64,000 nt of DNA, taken from assembly GCF_003855155.1 (NCBI RefSeq), contig NZ_CP034073.1, forward strand, positions 1,612,001-1,676,000, written 5' to 3'. Shown here in pieces: positions 53,826-62,212 of the stretch. The stretch comes from Shewanella psychromarinicola. Its GTDB lineage: Bacteria; Pseudomonadota; Gammaproteobacteria; Enterobacterales; Shewanellaceae. A program made the translations under genes and the position numbers. Each line of letters begins with the position of its first letter. The stretch's first letter is position 1. Below the pieces are notes generated by a model. The model searched no databases, had not been told where the DNA came from, and saw only the letters and a list, made by a program, of their open reading frames with translations.

Positions 53826-54191
53826 ATGTTATGTCAAATCCCCGATATTACCAAGGGTGTCATTAGTTTATTTGTCAGCGGCCGTTTATCGGCCCAAGAT
53901 TACCGAAGCCGTTTACAGCCCGCCATTAAGAGTTATCGTAAAGACTGGGATCAAGTGTGTCTTTACATTGAAGCGGATGTGTTATTAGAAGGCTGGGAAT
54001 TTGCTTCATTAACCGGCAGTGGTGAAGTACAGTTACCTGCGTTTGATGCCTTAGTGTTTGTGGGCGGCCCTGATTGGGTCGGTAATGCTGTTAGGTTAAT
54101 GGGGCCGTTTATGCAAGGTGAAGTCGCCTGGTTTCCATTAGAACGTAAACAAGATGCGGTTACTTGGATCACCAAACGATCGCAATGTTAG
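53826..54191 (+). CDS. SpoIIAA-like (STAS-fold) protein
   Basis: A 121-residue soluble protein with the SpoIIAA-like pattern (GVISLFVSGRLSAQDYRSR, VCLYIEADVLLEGWEF, DWVGNAVRLMGPFMQGEVAWF). Members of this PF11964-type group are small, often lipid- or nucleotide-related, with no agreed role in gammaproteobacteria. It is followed 33 bases later by a small lipoprotein gene in the same direction. Confidence 0.85.
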   Translation: MLCQIPDITKGVISLFVSGRLSAQDYRSRLQPAIKSYRKDWDQVCLYIEADVLLEGWEFASLTGSGEVQLPAFDALVFVGGPDWVGNAVRLMGPFMQGEVAWFPLERKQDAVTWITKRSQC

Positions 54192-54224
54192 TATTGATGT
54201 TATTACTTTAGAACAGGATAGCTT

Positions 54225-54401
54225 ATGTCATTATCAAAATTATTTGCCGTATCAAGTGCGTTATTGTTAACCCTTAGTTTAACGGCATGTGCACCAGAAG
54301 TCGGTAGCGAAGCATGGTGTAAGCAGATGAAAGAAAAACAAAGTGGTGATTGGACTGCCAATGAAGCAGCCGATTATGCCAAATACTGCGTCTTTAAATA
54401 A
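54225..54401 (+). CDS. DUF3012 family small lipoprotein
   Basis: A 58-residue lipoprotein (lipobox SLTACA, Cys at residue 22). The mature part VGSEAWCKQMKEKQSGDWTA then NEAADYAKYCVF matches DUF3012; two Cys may form a disulfide. AGGATA precedes the ATG. It is probably in one transcript with the SpoIIAA-like gene. Function unknown. Confidence 0.85.
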   Translation: MSLSKLFAVSSALLLTLSLTACAPEVGSEAWCKQMKEKQSGDWTANEAADYAKYCVFK

Positions 54402-54425
54402 ATTTATATCTGGTTTTATTTAAAA

Positions 54426-54462
54426 CAGGGGCATTTGTTATTAAAATGCCCTATTTTAATTT
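54426..54462 (+). terminator. Terminator after the DUF3012 gene
   Basis: AGGGGCATTT pairs with AAAATGCCCT across a short AT loop and is followed by ATTTTAATTTT. Confidence 0.75.
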
Positions 54463-54921
54463 TCAGTTTTTTGCAATAGTACTAAATTAATATAAAGAAA
54501 AATAATCCTTAAAGTATACACCCTCTCGAGATTTTCCTTTGTTAGCACTTGTACATAACCCTTCTAATTAATTTAATGTTCATCTTTAAATATGATAAGC
54601 AGTACATTCTGGCTATTTAAGCTATTTAAGCTATTTAAATGAATATTATTATTATTCTAATAACTTTTTGGTTGTTATTTATTGATTTTAATATTTTTAA
54701 GTAATATAAACACAAAAAATTGAATAAACATTGATCAGTTTGTTTGATATTTATTCTATTTTTTAGTGCCACCAAATTCATTGGATAATAAGTGATGTTA
54801 ATGTGAGCCAAACCACTTCTCATTAATAATAATTAATGTATATTGAGCGAATCGCTAGAAACAAATCTCTGTTATATCTTTATGTATTTTAAAGGTTTAT
54901 AAACTATTTAGGATGGAATTT
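54463..54921. other. AT-rich region upstream of the envelope operon
   Basis: A 459-base stretch, markedly more AT-rich than its left neighbours, with a short repeat (CTATTTAAG three times at about 54612). No gene is recognised. The operon promoter must lie here; such composition in an acquired region is a typical H-NS target, which is inference. Confidence 0.5.
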
Positions 54922-55995
54922 ATGAAGAAAGGACTCTTTGCGGCAACTGTCGCATGTGCAATATTATCTGGTTGCGTTAGTATCGAAAAAACCATTAATG
55001 ATAGCATGAAGACTTTAACTAACGCATTTAGTACACCTCAAATTCCAGTATCTGAATTAAAACCAGCACGAGAATCTAGCGCAAAAAACATGAAGCGTAT
55101 TGCGGTGATTCATGATCAACGCAGGCCTACGGGTGGTTCAATTCTAGAGACCAACCTTACCAACATTAAACTTAATAACTCCCCATACTTCACTTTAGTC
55201 GAGCGTTCTCAAATTGATGCTATTGTTAAAGAACAAAAGTTGAATGATGGCATATTAACTAATTCAGCGACTCGTATTAAATTAGGTAAGTTAACGGGTG
55301 CTGATACATTAATCAATGCAGGTTACTCTACTACAGTTGATTCATCTCGTTATTCAGAAAAAAGAAGTGAATGTACGGAAAAAGGTGATAATTGGTATAA
55401 GTGTAAAAAAAGTCGAAAATATACCGTTAGTTGTACCAAAAAAACTGCTGTTGTTATCTTGGAACCGAAAGCGGTTTCTGTAGAGTCTGGTCAAATTATA
55501 TTTTCAAACCATTATAGCGAAATTGCTGAGAGTAAGGTGTGTAATGATTCTAACGATGCACAACCAACAGATGAAGAATTAGTTGGCAGAGCTTTGGCTC
55601 GAGTTACTCATGAATTAAAAATTGATTTAGCGCCATTTACATTAACAACTGATGTCGACCTTATGGATGACGACAATTCTGACATGCCTGATGATGCTGA
55701 AAAAATGTTTGATATGGGCATTGAATTTACACAAGAAGGTATGTATAAAAATGCCTGTCAAATGTTTGCTAAAGCACAAACTAAATATTCATCATCTATT
55801 GCAATCACCTATAACAATGCAGTTTGTGCAGAGTTTCTAGCGGATGTTGAAATGGCTGACGCTTTCTATTCTAAAGCAACAACTATGACTGATGAAATTG
55901 ATGAATTGAAATTAGTTATGGAAGGTGAAACCCGTATTAAACAACGCTTAATTGATACGGAAGTGTTGAATAAGATAATCACAGAGCGTTTGTAA
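54922..55995 (+). CDS. CsgG-like lipoprotein with TPR-like C-terminus
   Basis: A protein of 357 residues from the ATG at 54922 (AGGA eight bases ahead; an ATG at 54913 lacks spacing). The lipobox is ILSGCV. Residues about 55-220 have the CsgG/LpoB-like pattern: KRIAVIHDQRRPTGGS, SPYFTLVERSQIDAIVKEQ and LGKLTGADTLINAGYS. An insert holds several Cys (RSECTEKGDNWYKCKKSRKY and VSCTKK). The C-terminal 110 residues form TPR-like helices (MFDMGIEFTQEGMYKNACQM). CsgG forms an outer-membrane export pore; LpoB activates cell-wall synthases. Which role applies is not decided. First gene of a five-gene operon. Confidence 0.78.
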   Translation: MKKGLFAATVACAILSGCVSIEKTINDSMKTLTNAFSTPQIPVSELKPARESSAKNMKRIAVIHDQRRPTGGSILETNLTNIKLNNSPYFTLVERSQIDAIVKEQKLNDGILTNSATRIKLGKLTGADTLINAGYSTTVDSSRYSEKRSECTEKGDNWYKCKKSRKYTVSCTKKTAVVILEPKAVSVESGQIIFSNHYSEIAESKVCNDSNDAQPTDEELVGRALARVTHELKIDLAPFTLTTDVDLMDDDNSDMPDDAEKMFDMGIEFTQEGMYKNACQMFAKAQTKYSSSIAITYNNAVCAEFLADVEMADAFYSKATTMTDEIDELKLVMEGETRIKQRLIDTEVLNKIITERL

Positions 55996-55997
55996 TA

Positions 55998-56849
55998 ATG
56001 GTTTCCTTTATTAATAAAGCACGACATCGTCGTGCTTTAAGTCTATCTATATTAACATTGGTTTTGGTTTGGCCGACGTCAGTAGTCGCTTGCAGCTGTG
56101 CTCAATATTATGCAGAACGCCCTCAGCCTGATTGGGTTACCTCCCAAACAGCTGATGGAATAACCTATATTGCAGCTGGGTCATCATTGTGTACGGGCCT
56201 CAAAAATTTAGATGAACGAAGAGTGGATAATGACGCTAGAGCGTCACTGACCAAAATGTTAAACACTTCGGTATCTACTCGCGAGAAAACATCTATTGGT
56301 GCAGTTGGTGATGCGGGTTACTCACGATATAAATCAAATACTGAATTAACAAGTGAACACATCTTAAAAAATGCCACTATTTTTGAGCGTTGGACTGATA
56401 ATCAAAACTGTATTGTTTATGCAGGGATTATGTTAAAACAAGCTGATCTCGATAAAGGTAAAACTGAACAACTAGAGGCACAGCAACAGCAGTTGGTGGC
56501 CCAAAATGCTTGTGTTGAAAGTTCTGGTGAGAATCGAGTCCATGTTAAAGAATGGATGATTGAACGCTTGTTACAGCAAGGGTTCGCATTTAATCCAGAC
56601 AAAACTTGTCAGGTAAAATATAGGCTTACGAGTAAGATTGTCAGTGCGCGTATCGATATGGTTAAAAATAATCTTATCGTTAAAGTGAGCAGAAATAATC
56701 AACCTATTTGGCATAAGACCTATTCAGGTAAAGCCATGAGTTACAGTCAAAGAAGCCGAAGTGAATTAACTCAATTAGCAATAAGCGACAGTTTAGATAG
56801 TTTCTTTGTTGATTTATCTTCGCTAAAACATAAAAAAATTACTCCATGA
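55998..56849 (+). CDS. LPP20-domain exported protein, envelope operon
   Basis: A 283-residue protein with an N-terminal signal (SLSILTLVLVWPTSVVACSC) that may be lipidated at the first Cys. It then has PQPDWVTS, a block like the P-x-WV start of LPP20 proteins, and DNDARASLTKMLNTSVSTRE. A coiled Gln-rich stretch (QLEAQQQQLVAQNACVES) and a C-terminal domain follow. The start lies two bases after the previous stop, so translation is coupled. Localised to the envelope; function unknown. Confidence 0.7.
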   Translation: MVSFINKARHRRALSLSILTLVLVWPTSVVACSCAQYYAERPQPDWVTSQTADGITYIAAGSSLCTGLKNLDERRVDNDARASLTKMLNTSVSTREKTSIGAVGDAGYSRYKSNTELTSEHILKNATIFERWTDNQNCIVYAGIMLKQADLDKGKTEQLEAQQQQLVAQNACVESSGENRVHVKEWMIERLLQQGFAFNPDKTCQVKYRLTSKIVSARIDMVKNNLIVKVSRNNQPIWHKTYSGKAMSYSQRSRSELTQLAISDSLDSFFVDLSSLKHKKITP

Positions 56850-57655
56850 CCAAGATGAAAAAAGCGGTAGCGCAGTTACTTACGGGTTCGACCATAGAAG
56901 AAGATGAAGGCCAAGTTGGTTTTTTTGCCAAAATGTCTCGTTTATTTATCTATATTGCATTTATTTTAATGGGGTTAGGTAATTGGTCTGATACTAAAGA
57001 GTTAATCACCGAAGGTTATCAAGGGTTTATTACTCATTTTACTGACAGAGTAGAACAAAAATCGCTTAATACCATCAGAGTGGGTAATTATCTAGCACAT
57101 GTTGAAGCCAACATTGGTATGCCAACGATAATAAAAAGCTCAAGCATCAATAGCGCTTTAAAGTATCGATACTATAAACAAGATAAGTACTTACTAACTT
57201 TAATTACAGAGCAGCAAAGAGTCTCTGGCGTTGTGGTTCATAGTTTATTTAATGACAGCGTAATATTAGATCGCTTTGCGCCGCAAATCCCCTTTACGGA
57301 CTTACATTTGCTAACCGATAGTATTGAATCAATTACGCAGCGAAGTAATGACTTTTTCTTTGATAGTAATAATTTAATTTACTTTATGACCACCACAGGT
57401 CTTGGTGCTGCTGGGATGCAGTTACAACTAACGGCTGGTTTTACAGAGTATGACGGACAACAAGATCATTTCAAATCTACTTTAGATGAATTAGGCCAGG
57501 TGTTGATGTTAGATGAAACTGAAAAGGTAGCACCGTTAGCTAAAAAACTCACAGTACAAGCCGCTAATTTTTATGCTGTATATGAGATAGATGAGCAAAT
57601 TATTGCCGACAGTTTATTAACTCGCTATGAATTTAATGCTTATTTCAAGGATTGA
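56846..57655 (+). CDS. Membrane-anchored protein of the envelope operon (ETEC_3214-like, tentative)
   Basis: A 269-residue protein. Residues 1-20 are cytosolic, one membrane helix lies at about 30-46 (LFIYIAFILMGLGNW) and the rest is periplasmic. No catalytic motif is seen. I tentatively associate it with the family named after ETEC_3214, from memory. It overlaps the previous stop by four bases (ATGA), so it is translated with it. As the only inner-membrane component of the operon it may anchor the assembly. Confidence 0.6.
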   Translation: MTKMKKAVAQLLTGSTIEEDEGQVGFFAKMSRLFIYIAFILMGLGNWSDTKELITEGYQGFITHFTDRVEQKSLNTIRVGNYLAHVEANIGMPTIIKSSSINSALKYRYYKQDKYLLTLITEQQRVSGVVVHSLFNDSVILDRFAPQIPFTDLHLLTDSIESITQRSNDFFFDSNNLIYFMTTTGLGAAGMQLQLTAGFTEYDGQQDHFKSTLDELGQVLMLDETEKVAPLAKKLTVQAANFYAVYEIDEQIIADSLLTRYEFNAYFKD

Positions 57656-57677
57656 TGTTTTCAAAGGATGAAGAAAC

Positions 57678-59036
57678 ATGGGCAAACGTGTGATATTAAA
57701 TAAAGCCAAACCGATTCTAATAAGCCTTTGCTTTATTGGTGTTGGCTTATCTGTCGGCTCACTGGTTGATGCTGCAGATAGTGATTTTGAGAAATTTAAA
57801 CAACAGCGTAAAGCTGAGGTTTCACAATTTAATCAATCTAAAAAAGCGGAATTTAAAAAATTCCGTGATGAGTACTTAGCTGAGTATGACGCCTACCGTG
57901 GTGAATTGCTGAAATTTTGGAGTGTACCAGAACAAAGCTCTTCCGAAGTAGAAGTTATTTATACACAAGATAAACAGACGCGCGTTAAAATTGATGCGTT
58001 AACTCAACAAGTGGTCATCGAAAATCTAACTGATGAAGTTATAGATCAAGACGTTATTATTAGTAAGTTGAAAGCCGACCCTAATACTCGCGTTTTATTA
58101 ACCAATATAAATAACCAAGCTTCGCTAACAGATGAAAAAAATATTGTTAATACGTTAATTGACCAACCTTCAGAAGTCGTGGCAGAAAAAGTCATTAACG
58201 AACAAATTGATACGCAACAGCAACAAATGCTGTCACAGCTTGATGTGCAACAAAGTATTGAAGAAATAGAGATAGAAATTGCGGCTAAAGTTACCCCTAG
58301 CAAGGCTAAATCTCTTGAGATAAAAAGTAAACTCAAGCAAGTTAACGAGATTAATAAGCAATCTCAAAAACGTAAAAAAATAGCCGATAAGCAAGTTGAG
58401 GCATTAGTTAAAATCAATCCTACGTATAAAAAAACTCAAGTAAATACCATGCGTTTACCTGAAGATTATTTGTACAAATTATCCAAGGATTATTTAAGTT
58501 TCTATCAAAAGCAATCTTCAGAAATGAATATTCCCTTATCGTTATTACTTGCTATTTCATATGCTGAATCAACTTTTGACCCAAAAGCAAAATCTCATAT
58601 TCCTGCATTTGGATTAATGCAAATTGTGCCAAGATCTGCAGGTATGGATGTTGCTAGAAAGTTTTATCGTAAAAATCAAGCTCCAACTTCGATAGAGCTG
58701 TATCAGCCTAATATTAACATTCGTTACGGCGCGGGTTATTTGTCCATTTTAAATGAACAATACCTTGATGGTATTGACGATCCAACAAGCAGGCAATATT
58801 GCGTTATAGCCGCTTACAATACTGGCGCAGGTAATATTGCAAAAACCTTTAATGGTGGAAATAATCGCTCTATAAAGCAGGCTTATAGCAAGATTAATGC
58901 GTTATCGCCCGATCAAGTCTATAGCAAATTAATGAAGCGTTTACCTTACCCCGAAACTCAAAAGTATTTAGCCAAAGTGTCTAAACTTGAAGCTAAATAT
59001 CAACATCAAATTAATCAATGGAATTTATCCGAATAA
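57678..59036 (+). CDS. MltC-like lytic transglycosylase, not lipidated
   Basis: A 452-residue exported protein (signal cleaved near VDAAD). It has no lipobox, unlike MltC. The N-terminal domain (FKQQRKAEVSQFNQSKKAEF, then FKKFRDEYLAEYDAYRGEL) is the MltC-type DUF3393 domain. A charged helical spacer of about 150 residues follows. The C-terminal SLT domain has the catalytic Glu in LAISYAESTFDPKAKSH, then FGLMQIVPRSAGMD and VIAAYNTGAGNIAKTFNGG. It would cut peptidoglycan glycan strands, opening the wall for an envelope-spanning structure. AAGGATG site before the ATG. Confidence 0.9.
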   Translation: MGKRVILNKAKPILISLCFIGVGLSVGSLVDAADSDFEKFKQQRKAEVSQFNQSKKAEFKKFRDEYLAEYDAYRGELLKFWSVPEQSSSEVEVIYTQDKQTRVKIDALTQQVVIENLTDEVIDQDVIISKLKADPNTRVLLTNINNQASLTDEKNIVNTLIDQPSEVVAEKVINEQIDTQQQQMLSQLDVQQSIEEIEIEIAAKVTPSKAKSLEIKSKLKQVNEINKQSQKRKKIADKQVEALVKINPTYKKTQVNTMRLPEDYLYKLSKDYLSFYQKQSSEMNIPLSLLLAISYAESTFDPKAKSHIPAFGLMQIVPRSAGMDVARKFYRKNQAPTSIELYQPNINIRYGAGYLSILNEQYLDGIDDPTSRQYCVIAAYNTGAGNIAKTFNGGNNRSIKQAYSKINALSPDQVYSKLMKRLPYPETQKYLAKVSKLEAKYQHQINQWNLSE

Positions 59037-59043
59037 GGGAATA

Positions 59044-59622
59044 ATGATGAAAAAAGTGCTACTAATTTCTGCATCTGTTTTAATGCTAGCGGCTTGTAAC
59101 AGTACGCCTCAATCACAATCTACATCTCTTGCGGACAATGATTCAGTGCCAAGTTGGGTATTTATGCCAACAAGTGAAAAAGGCTTAGCTTCTTCAAGTT
59201 GTGTTGCTTGGGGTGGGAATATGTCGGCAGCAAGAGCTCAAGCCATTGCCAATGCTAAAGCGGACCTTGCGCTACAAATTGAAACTCGTGCAAAAGTCAT
59301 GGATAAAACCATGAACTCACAATCTCAACAAGGTACTGAAGTTCAGAATAAATCGACGTTTAGTCAAGTGAGTAAACAAGTAGCCGAGCAAAGTTTAATT
59401 GGTGCCATTCCAAAAGAAGTGGCTTTTGCCTTAATCGATAATCAGAAACAACTTTGTGCATTGGTTGAGATGGAAAATACCCAACCCTTATTTGATAACT
59501 TATTGGCTTCCGCTGGTGTGTCGCTAGACCCGTCTTTAGAAGCGAATTTATACAAAGATTTTCGCACTACAAAAATTACTGAAGAGCTACAGGCTGAGTT
59601 GTCTGGAAAAGAATTTGACTAA
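59044..59622 (+). CDS. LPP20-family lipoprotein
   Basis: A protein of 192 residues from the first of two adjacent ATGs (59044 and 59047, AAGGG upstream). The frame overlaps the end of the previous gene further up, but that start has no signal. The lipobox is LMLAACNS. The core SARAQAIANAKADLALQIET with VPSWVFMP before it is the LPP20 signature. It ends the operon, seven bases after the transglycosylase stop. LPP20 proteins sit in outer membranes; several are flagellar or surface-associated. Function here unknown. Confidence 0.85.
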   Translation: MMKKVLLISASVLMLAACNSTPQSQSTSLADNDSVPSWVFMPTSEKGLASSSCVAWGGNMSAARAQAIANAKADLALQIETRAKVMDKTMNSQSQQGTEVQNKSTFSQVSKQVAEQSLIGAIPKEVAFALIDNQKQLCALVEMENTQPLFDNLLASAGVSLDPSLEANLYKDFRTTKITEELQAELSGKEFD

Positions 59623-59683: not shown

Positions 59684-60143
59684 GGGGGCTGTTGATCTTT
59701 GTTTGAATTTTGTGCGAAGAAGGTAATCTCGTATAGTTCACTTCGCCAAAAACAAATACAACGAGATTACCATGCCCCGATTAATGCTTGCTGATGAGAT
59801 GTGGTCGAAGCTAAAAGCTATTCTGCTTGACGATAGCGTTTATAACAAGCGAGAGCATAGATATACGATGGAAGGGAGCCTCTATTGATTGCGTGTCGGC
59901 TGTCCTTGGCGCGATTTACCTGAATATTTTGGCTTATGGAATACGGTTTACCGTCGTTTTTTACTGTGGTCAAGAAAAGGTATTTTACTCAGATTGTTCA
60001 AGGCATTATCGACTGATAGCGATACAGCGTGGGAATGTCTTGAGGGGAGATATATTAAAGCACATCAACACAGTGTCGACGTGGCAATAACAGACCTATT
60101 GCAAGTCAATACAACACAGATAGCAGAACAACGAGCAGTTTGA
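59684..60143 (+). mobile_element. Truncated IS5-family insertion sequence
   Basis: The left end GGGGGCTGTTGATCTTT stands next to TA (59682-59683) and resembles the ends of the two MITE-like elements. A transposase frame follows. No matching right end is found before 60200, so the 3' part is lost. It marks the right border of the AT-rich envelope operon. Confidence 0.8.
59772..60143 (+). pseudogene. IS5-family transposase fragment with in-frame stop
   Basis: Translation gives MPRLMLADEMWSKLKAILLD and further to MEGSLY, a TGA at 59886-59888, then in the same frame RVGCPWRDLPEYFGLWNTVY, LLWSRKGILLRLF and GRYIKAHQHS. These are the first-frame blocks of IS5 (IS427-type) transposases; the catalytic second half is missing. 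An unrelated short tail ends at 60143. Confidence 0.9.
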
Positions 60144-60913: not shown

Positions 60914-62212
60914 ATGAACACCAAATTAGTACCGCCTCTGTCTTTGCTGGCAGCATTAAATGCCAAATCTCTTGTGAATAATGCCGTGAGTCGTGTCGTG
61001 AGTAATACAGACACTCATGCTCAGTTAACAAGCCTGTTAAATCCCCTATTAAATGCTCGTAGCAATGCTCGTAGAAATAACCAAAGTAACTTAACTGTTT
61101 CTCGAGGATTATTGTTCGGCTCAGCGTTACTCGGTTCATTATTAATGTTATCTAGTTTGCCTGCTCAGGCAAGTAGTCAGCCAGCCGAAACTGACCACCA
61201 ACAGTCGTTACTAAGCTTAAATACTGAGCAGCGCCAATTAGCGGGGATAGAGGTGTCACAATTGAGTCTGCAAGCTTTTAATTTACAGGCTGTCGCTACC
61301 GCGCAATTAATCGTTGATAAAGATAAAACCATTACCATTGCACCGCAATTAGATATGCAGGTACTTAAGCGTCATGTGGTGCCTGGAGAGCAGGTGACAA
61401 AAGGCCAACCTTTGTTAACCATAGGCGGAGCGGAGATTGCTGCCGCCCAAGCGAACTACATTAATGCGGCGACGGAATGGGACCGAATAAAGCGCATGAG
61501 TCCTGGCACCATCAGTGCTAGCCAACGCATGCAAATCGAAGTGAATGCTGAGTTAAAACGGGCCATTTTAGAATCAATCATGATGACCCCAGCGCAAATT
61601 GCTGCGTTAGCCAAATCGCCGAGTTCGATTGGCCAGTTTCAGTTATTAGCTTCCATTAATGGCCGGGTACAACAAGATGTCGCGACCTTAGGCCAAGTGC
61701 TAATAGCGGGTACGCCTTTGATGCAACTGACAGATGAATCGTATTTATGGGTGGAGGCTGAGGTTACGCCTATGCAAGCGGATCAAGTCAATATGGGCAG
61801 CAATGTGTTGGTTCATGTTGGCAGTCGTACTCGTAATGGGGTCATTATTAGCCGCTCTCATGAAATTAATCCGCAAACCCGCACAGAACAAGTATTGGTG
61901 AGGATGGCTAATCCAGGCCATGAATTACATGCAGGTGAGTTTGCCGAATTATACCTAGCAGACGATCAGCAGGCGAAGTCTGCTGGTTTTATTGTGCCTG
62001 ATGCGGCCTTAACTCGCGGTGGTGATGGCGACTGGCAAGTGTTTGTTGAGCAAGAGGGTGGATTTAGCGCAGTAGAGGTCACTGTGGTTGAACGCCAACG
62101 TGGGTTGAGCTTTATTCGCGGTTTAGCTCCCCAAACACGAGTGGTTATTTCTGGGGCTTTTTTCTTAGCCTCAGAGCAAGCCAAAGCTGGTTTTGACATC
62201 CATAACCACTAA
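60914..62212 (+). CDS. Heavy-metal RND efflux periplasmic adaptor (CzcB/CusB type)
   Basis: A 432-residue membrane-fusion protein. The usual order is seen: barrel-sandwich strands (TIAPQLDMQVLKRHVVPGEQ), a short helical hairpin, LASINGRVQQDVATLGQVL, beta-barrel (LWVEAEVTPMQADQVNMGSN) and the membrane-proximal end GLAPQTRVVISGAFFLASE. It links the CzcA-type pump to an outer channel. The start is fixed by AGGA before the ATG; this leaves an unusual N-terminal tail of about 65 polar residues before the hydrophobic segment. No outer-membrane channel gene lies upstream. Confidence 0.92.
   Translation: MNTKLVPPLSLLAALNAKSLVNNAVSRVVSNTDTHAQLTSLLNPLLNARSNARRNNQSNLTVSRGLLFGSALLGSLLMLSSLPAQASSQPAETDHQQSLLSLNTEQRQLAGIEVSQLSLQAFNLQAVATAQLIVDKDKTITIAPQLDMQVLKRHVVPGEQVTKGQPLLTIGGAEIAAAQANYINAATEWDRIKRMSPGTISASQRMQIEVNAELKRAILESIMMTPAQIAALAKSPSSIGQFQLLASINGRVQQDVATLGQVLIAGTPLMQLTDESYLWVEAEVTPMQADQVNMGSNVLVHVGSRTRNGVIISRSHEINPQTRTEQVLVRMANPGHELHAGEFAELYLADDQQAKSAGFIVPDAALTRGGDGDWQVFVEQEGGFSAVEVTVVERQRGLSFIRGLAPQTRVVISGAFFLASEQAKAGFDIHNH

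Follow-up and report, generated by a model that had tools for sequence, protein, structure and literature searches.

A recurrent five-gene cell-envelope set with an ETEC_3214-domain protein and an MltC-like transglycosylase in Shewanella psychromarinicola

A compact envelope block and its products

We analysed a stretch of 64,000 nucleotides (hereafter the window; NZ_CP034073.1, positions 1,612,001 to 1,676,000) from the genome of Shewanella psychromarinicola, a single contig of 5.13 Mb. Five plus-strand open reading frames (ORFs), g1 to g5, occupy positions 54922-59622 of the window, with intergenic gaps of 2, -4, 22 and 10 nt (Table 1). A first-pass annotation, made from the sequence alone, had proposed that they form a compact envelope block whose products reach from the outer membrane through the wall to the inner membrane. 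The ORFs, their spacing and their families bore this out, and the predicted locations are consistent with such a span. We found that the five genes are a real, repeatedly inherited cell-envelope set, which we read as one form of a modular assembly of the envelope with a patchy distribution in gammaproteobacteria.

Table 1. Positions in the window of the five genes and of the features that border them
Feature	Position	Strand	Details
Upstream AT-rich intergenic stretch, probable promoter region	54192..54912		GC 0.322 (54000-54999) and 0.312 (54500-55499), 1-kb windows
g1, CsgG-type-domain lipoprotein, C-terminal TPR-like helical region	54922..55995	+	357 aa; alternative in-frame ATG 54913
g2, exported LPP20-like protein, second unassigned domain, Cys-rich	55998..56849	+	283 aa
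g3, ETEC_3214-domain protein, one predicted N-terminal membrane segment, BamE/BLIP-like tandem domain	56846..57655	+	269 aa
g4, predicted secreted MltC-like lytic transglycosylase without lipobox, catalytic-type Glu297 kept	57678..59036	+	452 aa
g5, short LPP20-type lipoprotein	59047..59622	+	191 aa; second in-frame ATG 59044
Degraded IS5-family transposase remnant, downstream boundary outside the set	about 59772..60140	+	tblastn, in-frame stop

The block had been described as AT-rich and as ending at a broken insertion sequence, and both statements held. Its GC content of 0.366, compared with 0.421 across the window, ranks at percentile 3.4 among 593 sliding windows. The downstream element aligns over 124 aa, at 46.8%, with a transposase annotated as IS5 (E 5e-38, one in-frame stop). 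This remnant is a boundary mark, from which no mechanism of acquisition is evident. On the upstream side no promoter was assigned, because sigma-70-like matches across the whole region were fewer than in shuffled sequence (15 versus 23.9).

The g4 product has an SLT domain (81.7 bits), its family profile matches MltC structures with E values of 8.5e-74 to 9.7e-70, and Glu297 is invariant, together with the GLM and AAYN residues, in all 19 family rows. Among NCBIfam models, MltC scores highest for g4, at 152.7 bits, which does not reach the equivalog cut-off of 375. With MltC, g4 thus shares the SLT domain and the catalytic-type glutamate. The Mltc_N domain is over cut-off in one of four relatives scanned (L126), just below it in L014 and L050 and not found in L004, and g4 of the window gives no match to it at E 1; a profile comparison with the MltC N-domain yields 16 bits. 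Apart from its lower score, g4 differs from MltC in its length (452 aa against a 359-position model), in its divergent N-terminal half and in its signal sequence, which has no lipobox, so that the lipoprotein anchor of MltC is missing. A flagellar transglycosylase model was matched below cut-off via the SLT domain (58.2 of 234 bits), and matches to phage-collection records cover at most 42% of the length, around that same domain.

The g3 product carries the ETEC_3214 domain (NF043066, 97.9 bits, curated cut-off 35). This NCBIfam domain is what it shares with ETEC_3214 of enterotoxigenic Escherichia coli H10407, a gene described as CfaD-activated and of function not known; the H10407 gene differs in lying on an island with the type II secretion system (T2SS) and SslE (PMC5554520). 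At E 1e-5, a search of 50,697 phage records found no relative of g3. One ETEC_3214-domain gene (L018:7965-8762) lies on a mobilizable plasmid of Priestia megaterium, among HNH endonuclease and ATPase genes. As this organism is Gram-positive, the domain is not tied to the outer membrane.

The g5 product matches the LPP20 model below cut-off (16.8 bits, cut-off 25.9), and five of nine members of its family match it at E 0.1, the best at E 4.2e-6. Alone, g2 has no Pfam match; four of seven members of its family match LPP20 weakly (best E 0.0015). Related loci, described below, contain a short (c2) and a long (c3) LPP20-type family, which at locus L065 score 25.2 and 37.5 bits, respectively, against the same cut-off. 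Family c2 matches the solved LPP20 structure 5ok8 (E 1.2e-6) and c3 matches structure 4kzs (E 1.4e-19), which we take to be HP1454. After signal-peptide trimming, hhalign gave 97.7% for g5-c2, 92.0% for g5-g2, 84.0% for g2-c3, 81.1% for c2-g2, 62.9% for c3-g5 and 62.1% for c3-c2; of the remaining pairs, c3 and the exported protein c9 reached 32.2% and all others at most 7.3%. Profile comparisons found no relation between c9 and g2. In our view, g2 probably belongs with g5 to the LPP20 fold class. Two to three lipoproteins had been counted in the block at first; a clear lipobox is present in g1 (LSGC) and g5 and in those two only, and g2 may be soluble and periplasmic, because its Cys pair is also retained in the L016 relative, where no lipobox fits.

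Recurrence, variants and co-inheritance of the set

A search of genome contigs with a single protein returned no loci, and an alignment-based repeat returned four. The same five genes do recur elsewhere, as the block reading implied: their order is kept in other Shewanella and in Pseudoalteromonas (L004, L005, L010, L011, L012, L016) and permuted in P. xiamenensis (L017). NF043066 was present in 29 of 394 genomes of the order and in 10 of 114 genera. In a sample of the class, 3 of 274 genomes were positive, the window included; the other two have only the g3-g4 pair (L014) and g3, g4 and a short LPP20 gene on a 4.5 kb contig (L015). Right after the g3-g4 pair of L014, on the minus strand and thus opposite to it, lies a ThsB-type TIR-domain gene (L014:10598-11089, E 3.4e-11).

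We then considered 29 ETEC_3214 neighbourhoods, 26 of them fetched and three already available (the window, G005 and G073), whose ORFs were clustered and assigned by profile models. In 25 of the 29 loci, the ETEC_3214 gene is clustered with an MltC-like transglycosylase and with LPP20-type proteins of both the short and the long form. Of these 25 loci, 22 hold g1, c4 or c8 as well, that is, a CsgG-like, a positionally matching or a weakly LpoB-like lipoprotein, respectively. ETEC_3214, hitherto a family name with no known function or partners, is here linked to a specific transglycosylase and to LPP20 proteins across changes of gene order. Most cluster proteins had been used to train the models, and their membership rests on the BLAST clusters. 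Outside the training set, the long LPP20 proteins of L055, L070 and L071 were matched at E 2.8e-23, 6.8e-9 and 7.6e-11; the L070 protein is only the 99-aa ORF of an apparently split gene, and Pfam gives no match for the L071 copy.

Four architectures emerged. Type A is that of the window. Type B comprises ETEC_3214, the long LPP20 protein (c3), a lipoprotein of ~340 aa (c4), the short LPP20 protein (c2) and the transglycosylase; its genes occur in three or more different orders. Type C adds to the core the lipoproteins c7 and c8 and the exported protein c9. Type D consists of an LPP20 protein with DUF4384 (c19), the transglycosylase, a short LPP20 protein (c20), ETEC_3214, a caspase-domain protein (c17) and c18. 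We had entertained an equivalence of g1 and c4 on the basis of an untrimmed hhalign value of 94.3%, but this fell to 7.3% after signal-peptide trimming, and 0 of 10 c4 members match CsgG or LpoB; the correspondence was set back to a positional one. Comparison of g1 with c8 gave nothing, and at E 0.1 no member of c4 or c8 matches CsgG.

Some clusters contain further genes. In the type C loci L058, L115, L119, L121 and L126, proteins of ~430-450 aa and 237-253 aa are encoded between c9 and the transglycosylase or ETEC_3214; the L058 and L126 copies, which were scanned, have no Pfam family over cut-off, and the two are candidate components or cargo. In the type D clusters L061, L063, L069 and L117, the caspase-domain, c18 and LPP20-DUF4384 genes stand beside the transglycosylase and ETEC_3214, without g1, c4 or c8; in the Pfam run, which covered the L069 representatives, c18 matches no family over cut-off. 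A further locus, L116, holds a caspase-like gene, a short LPP20 gene, a transglycosylase and unlabelled ORFs, and no ETEC_3214. Proteases recur near the clusters: besides the caspase-like genes, an annotated M6 metalloprotease lies beside L017, and a papain-family cysteine protease gene lies directly downstream of two type B clusters (L052:11794-13203 and L056:12005-13414; Pfam run on the L052 copy).

Four loci (L047, L060, L062 and L064) have ETEC_3214 without the remaining parts nearby. The genomes of L062 and L064 carry short LPP20, full-length transglycosylase, long LPP20 and c8- and c9-like genes at a second locus. In those of L047 and L060, the transglycosylase matches cover just the SLT part at the C-terminus, and LPP20 was not found.

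Co-inheritance was assessed in 97 Shewanella genomes, 16 of which contain NF043066, a patchy distribution. A transglycosylase profile score of at least 277 bits was found in 16 of 16 genomes with the domain and in 2 of 81 without it (G001, 386 bits; G067, 325 bits), which gives a Fisher P of 1.9e-16 without phylogenetic correction. The 277-bit threshold was set after the scores had been seen, 4 of the 16 positive genomes supplied rows to the profile, and the weakest of the 16, G062, matches only from profile position 234; when a match to the N-terminal part was required instead, the counts were 15 of 16 versus 2 of 81. Other transglycosylase matches in these genomes score at most 225 bits and begin no earlier than profile position 186, barring a second match in G032 (382 bits) that corresponds to the L121 cluster. 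In addition, pairwise distances of ETEC_3214, the transglycosylase and the short and long LPP20 proteins correlate over 29 loci (r 0.62-0.87), and for none of the six pairs did any of 2000 permutations reach the observed value. This test kept 29 of 44 loci, after removal of six judged near-duplicates and nine missing a part. On the co-occurrence counts, a chance neighbourhood was set aside.

Of 38 related loci, 31 have a lower GC content than the flanking sequence retrieved with them. The DNA that flanks the set in the window is unlike that in G005/S. mangrovi. The five proteins encoded in G073 are 99.6-100% identical to those of Shewanella mangrovi NZ_JPEO01000001. The patchy distribution and the differing flanks agree with an origin by horizontal spread.

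A possible trans-envelope scaffold and its alternatives

The CsgG domain of g1 (PF03783) scores 38.5 bits (cut-off 20.8, E 1e-9), and g1 is the sole CsgG-domain gene detected in the genome at E 0.001. LpoB models are matched below cut-off (Pfam, 18.1 of 22.3 bits, E 0.0026; NCBIfam, 21.2 of 110.55 bits, E 0.00024). We modelled g1 as a single chain with AlphaFold2 from an alignment of 14 rows. The model contains one long hairpin (129-154/161-186), the tip of which has 15 charged residues out of 34 (range 8/29 to 17/34 over 13 rows) and three conserved Cys. Where CsgG has its second hairpin, g1 has just 9 residues from strand 198-207 to helix 217, and so two membrane-type beta hairpins per subunit are not found in g1, as judged from the model and the sequence length. 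Foldseek ranked CsgG first (4uv2, E 2.1e-5), followed within ~20-fold in E by the LPHT ring, GNA1162 and FlgT; its matches include LpoB (E 7.1e-3). The fold of PelC is probably kin to that of g1. The TPR-like character of the C-terminus is weak by sequence and supported by the fold, with TPR structures matching residues about 252-331. Aligned to E. coli CsgG alone by hhalign, g1 gave a weak 6%. The VIA-align list for g1 was full of TPR proteins and informed little on the CsgG part, and profile searches of solved structures using A1 and A6 yielded nothing useful.

What might such a set build? We tentatively favour, at somewhat less than even confidence, a lipoprotein ring or scaffold that would span the envelope, bring a wall-cutting enzyme and an inner-membrane anchor of its own, and act like the flagellar H-ring or basal disk or the PelC collar rather than like a CsgG channel. 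Judging by families and folds, putative outer-membrane lipoproteins, namely g1, of the CsgG/LpoB fold class, and g5, probably with g2, of the LPP20 fold class, would build a scaffold beneath the outer membrane in the shape of a ring or disk. Secreted g4 would cut peptidoglycan locally, so that the scaffold could insert into the wall or reach across it, and the BamE-like, membrane-anchored g3 would hold or guide it from the inner membrane. The ring would hold another structure, or sit under it.

We favour this ring or scaffold because known ring builders use the LPP20, FlgP and FlgT folds, and because PelC is a lipoprotein ring. The recurrence of the set in rearranged orders, its co-inheritance and the fold matches of g1 also speak for it. 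An SHS2-type fold is common to LPP20, FlgP and FlgT; FlgP, for which a ring-forming hairpin insert is described, assembles into rings and makes up the Campylobacter basal disk (PMC12222027). With the flagellar H-ring or basal disk of Vibrio and Campylobacter (FlgO, FlgP, FlgT), the set shares LPP20/SHS2-fold lipoproteins and a protein of the CsgG/FlgT fold class; it differs by its additional transglycosylase and ETEC_3214 protein. PelC is a periplasmic ring of 12 lipoproteins under PelB (PMC12141448), that is, a non-barrel ring of outer-membrane lipoproteins seated beneath another structure, as would be the ring proposed here from the genes; a PelB-like gene was, however, not found in family scans of the five genes and three flanking ORFs, the extent of that search. 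The HP1454-HP1456 (Lpp20) operon of Helicobacter pylori also combines long and short LPP20-type proteins (PMC11756786), and the likeness extends to the matches of c3 and c2 to 4kzs and 5ok8. It differs in that the cited part of that report, on which the comparison rests, mentions no transglycosylase or ETEC_3214 alongside.

Several points weigh against a ring or scaffold. No transported or scaffolded partner was found. The g1 model is single-chain and only moderate (mean pLDDT 71, pTM 0.54, 14 rows), the g1-c4 equivalence falls to 7.3% on trimming, and c8 matches LpoB weakly and in two of five members. Three of the 25 loci (type D) have the caspase-like protein and no g1, c4 or c8. The parts also separate: ETEC_3214 stands alone in L047, L060 and the Priestia plasmid, and the type C clusters L115, L121 and L126 have the transglycosylase and no detected ETEC_3214, although the L121 genome (G032) carries one at a separate locus. 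Shared species history alone could lie behind part of the co-inheritance signal, which was computed without a species-tree control. Finally, HP1454 and HP1456 showed no mutual interaction, and the significance of their contacts was called unclear by the authors (PMC11756786).

The same evidence can be read differently. The set might control peptidoglycan remodelling: an LpoB-like g1 would traverse the wall and, jointly with g3 and the LPP20 proteins, switch g4 or a synthase on and off, with no large ring. The weak likeness of g1 to LpoB in Pfam, NCBIfam and Foldseek, the LpoB matches of c8 and the tight linkage of the transglycosylase to the set speak for this, but every LpoB score lies below its curated cut-off, and several structural proteins per enzyme would seem to exceed the need of known activators; we regard it as rather unlikely. 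An export or surface-assembly channel, in which g1 would be a CsgG-type pore fed or supported by the other parts, was the reading of the first-pass annotation. The CsgG domain over cut-off, the top Foldseek rank of CsgG and the long hairpin stand in its favour. The annotation had also named a lack of barrel hairpins as evidence against a pore, and the model suggests this in part, with a single hairpin, highly charged at its tip, and no space for a second. Moreover, CsgG matches are wanting in c4 and c8, g1 has an extra TPR-like region that curli CsgG (with CsgE and CsgF) does not share, and a Pfam scan of the five genes and three flanking ORFs of the window, the extent of the curli search, found no curli gene. 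A curli-like pore is thus weakly supported by the model and a channel appears improbable, although g1 could form a barrel on oligomerisation.

A horizontally exchanged envelope-stress or antagonism module, acting against phage, predators or envelope attack, would agree with the patchy distribution, with the low GC of the related loci and with the caspase-like, papain-like and TIR-type neighbours of some variants. These neighbours are, however, not conserved across variants, none of the five genes has a PADLOC match, and the phage records contained no g3 relative, which makes such a role quite improbable. The flagellar H-ring proper was set aside, the genome having a separate flgT/flgO/LPP20 set. 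As for an accessory ring of a flagellum or other appendage encoded elsewhere, the H-ring itself is built of LPP20 and CsgG/FlgT-type folds, H. pylori LPP20-type proteins bind the disk protein FlgP in two-hybrid and co-immunoprecipitation assays (PMC11756786), and g4 has its sub-cut-off flagellar match. Yet the genome's own flgT, flgO and adjoining LPP20 gene (flgP by position) lie at 4.73 Mb, >2 Mb away, and none of the five products matches the FlgO or FlgT model at E 1, so that this is the least probable of the alternatives and, in our estimation, hardly to be expected.

It is possible, though doubtful, that these loci encode an undescribed class of trans-envelope machine, built of ETEC_3214, a transglycosylase and exchangeable LPP20 and CsgG/LpoB-class lipoproteins, with variants in which a caspase-like protein takes the place of the CsgG-type part. 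Should this be true, it would be a separate envelope structure of a standing comparable to curli, Pel or the flagellar H-ring. The set suggests a joint use of LPP20 and CsgG-class folds outside flagella and curli, and offers a concrete, testable complex in environmental bacteria for how lipoprotein assemblies pass peptidoglycan. The first-pass annotation knew of no system with these five genes, and in the open-access literature we likewise found no paper describing the set among the matches listed; subscription papers were mostly outside this scope, and a description elsewhere is possible.

Genes next to the set

Upstream of the set, the window contains a SpoIIAA-like gene (53826-54191). At L005:11644-12039 and L004:14599-14988, on the downstream side of the set, are short genes of similar appearance, with a universal-stress-like gene behind each; the likeness is by appearance, and the arrangement may be due to chance. 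Just past the IS5 remnant, a CusB/HlyD-type membrane fusion protein is encoded at 60914-62212 of the window, perhaps as the start of a metal-efflux block.

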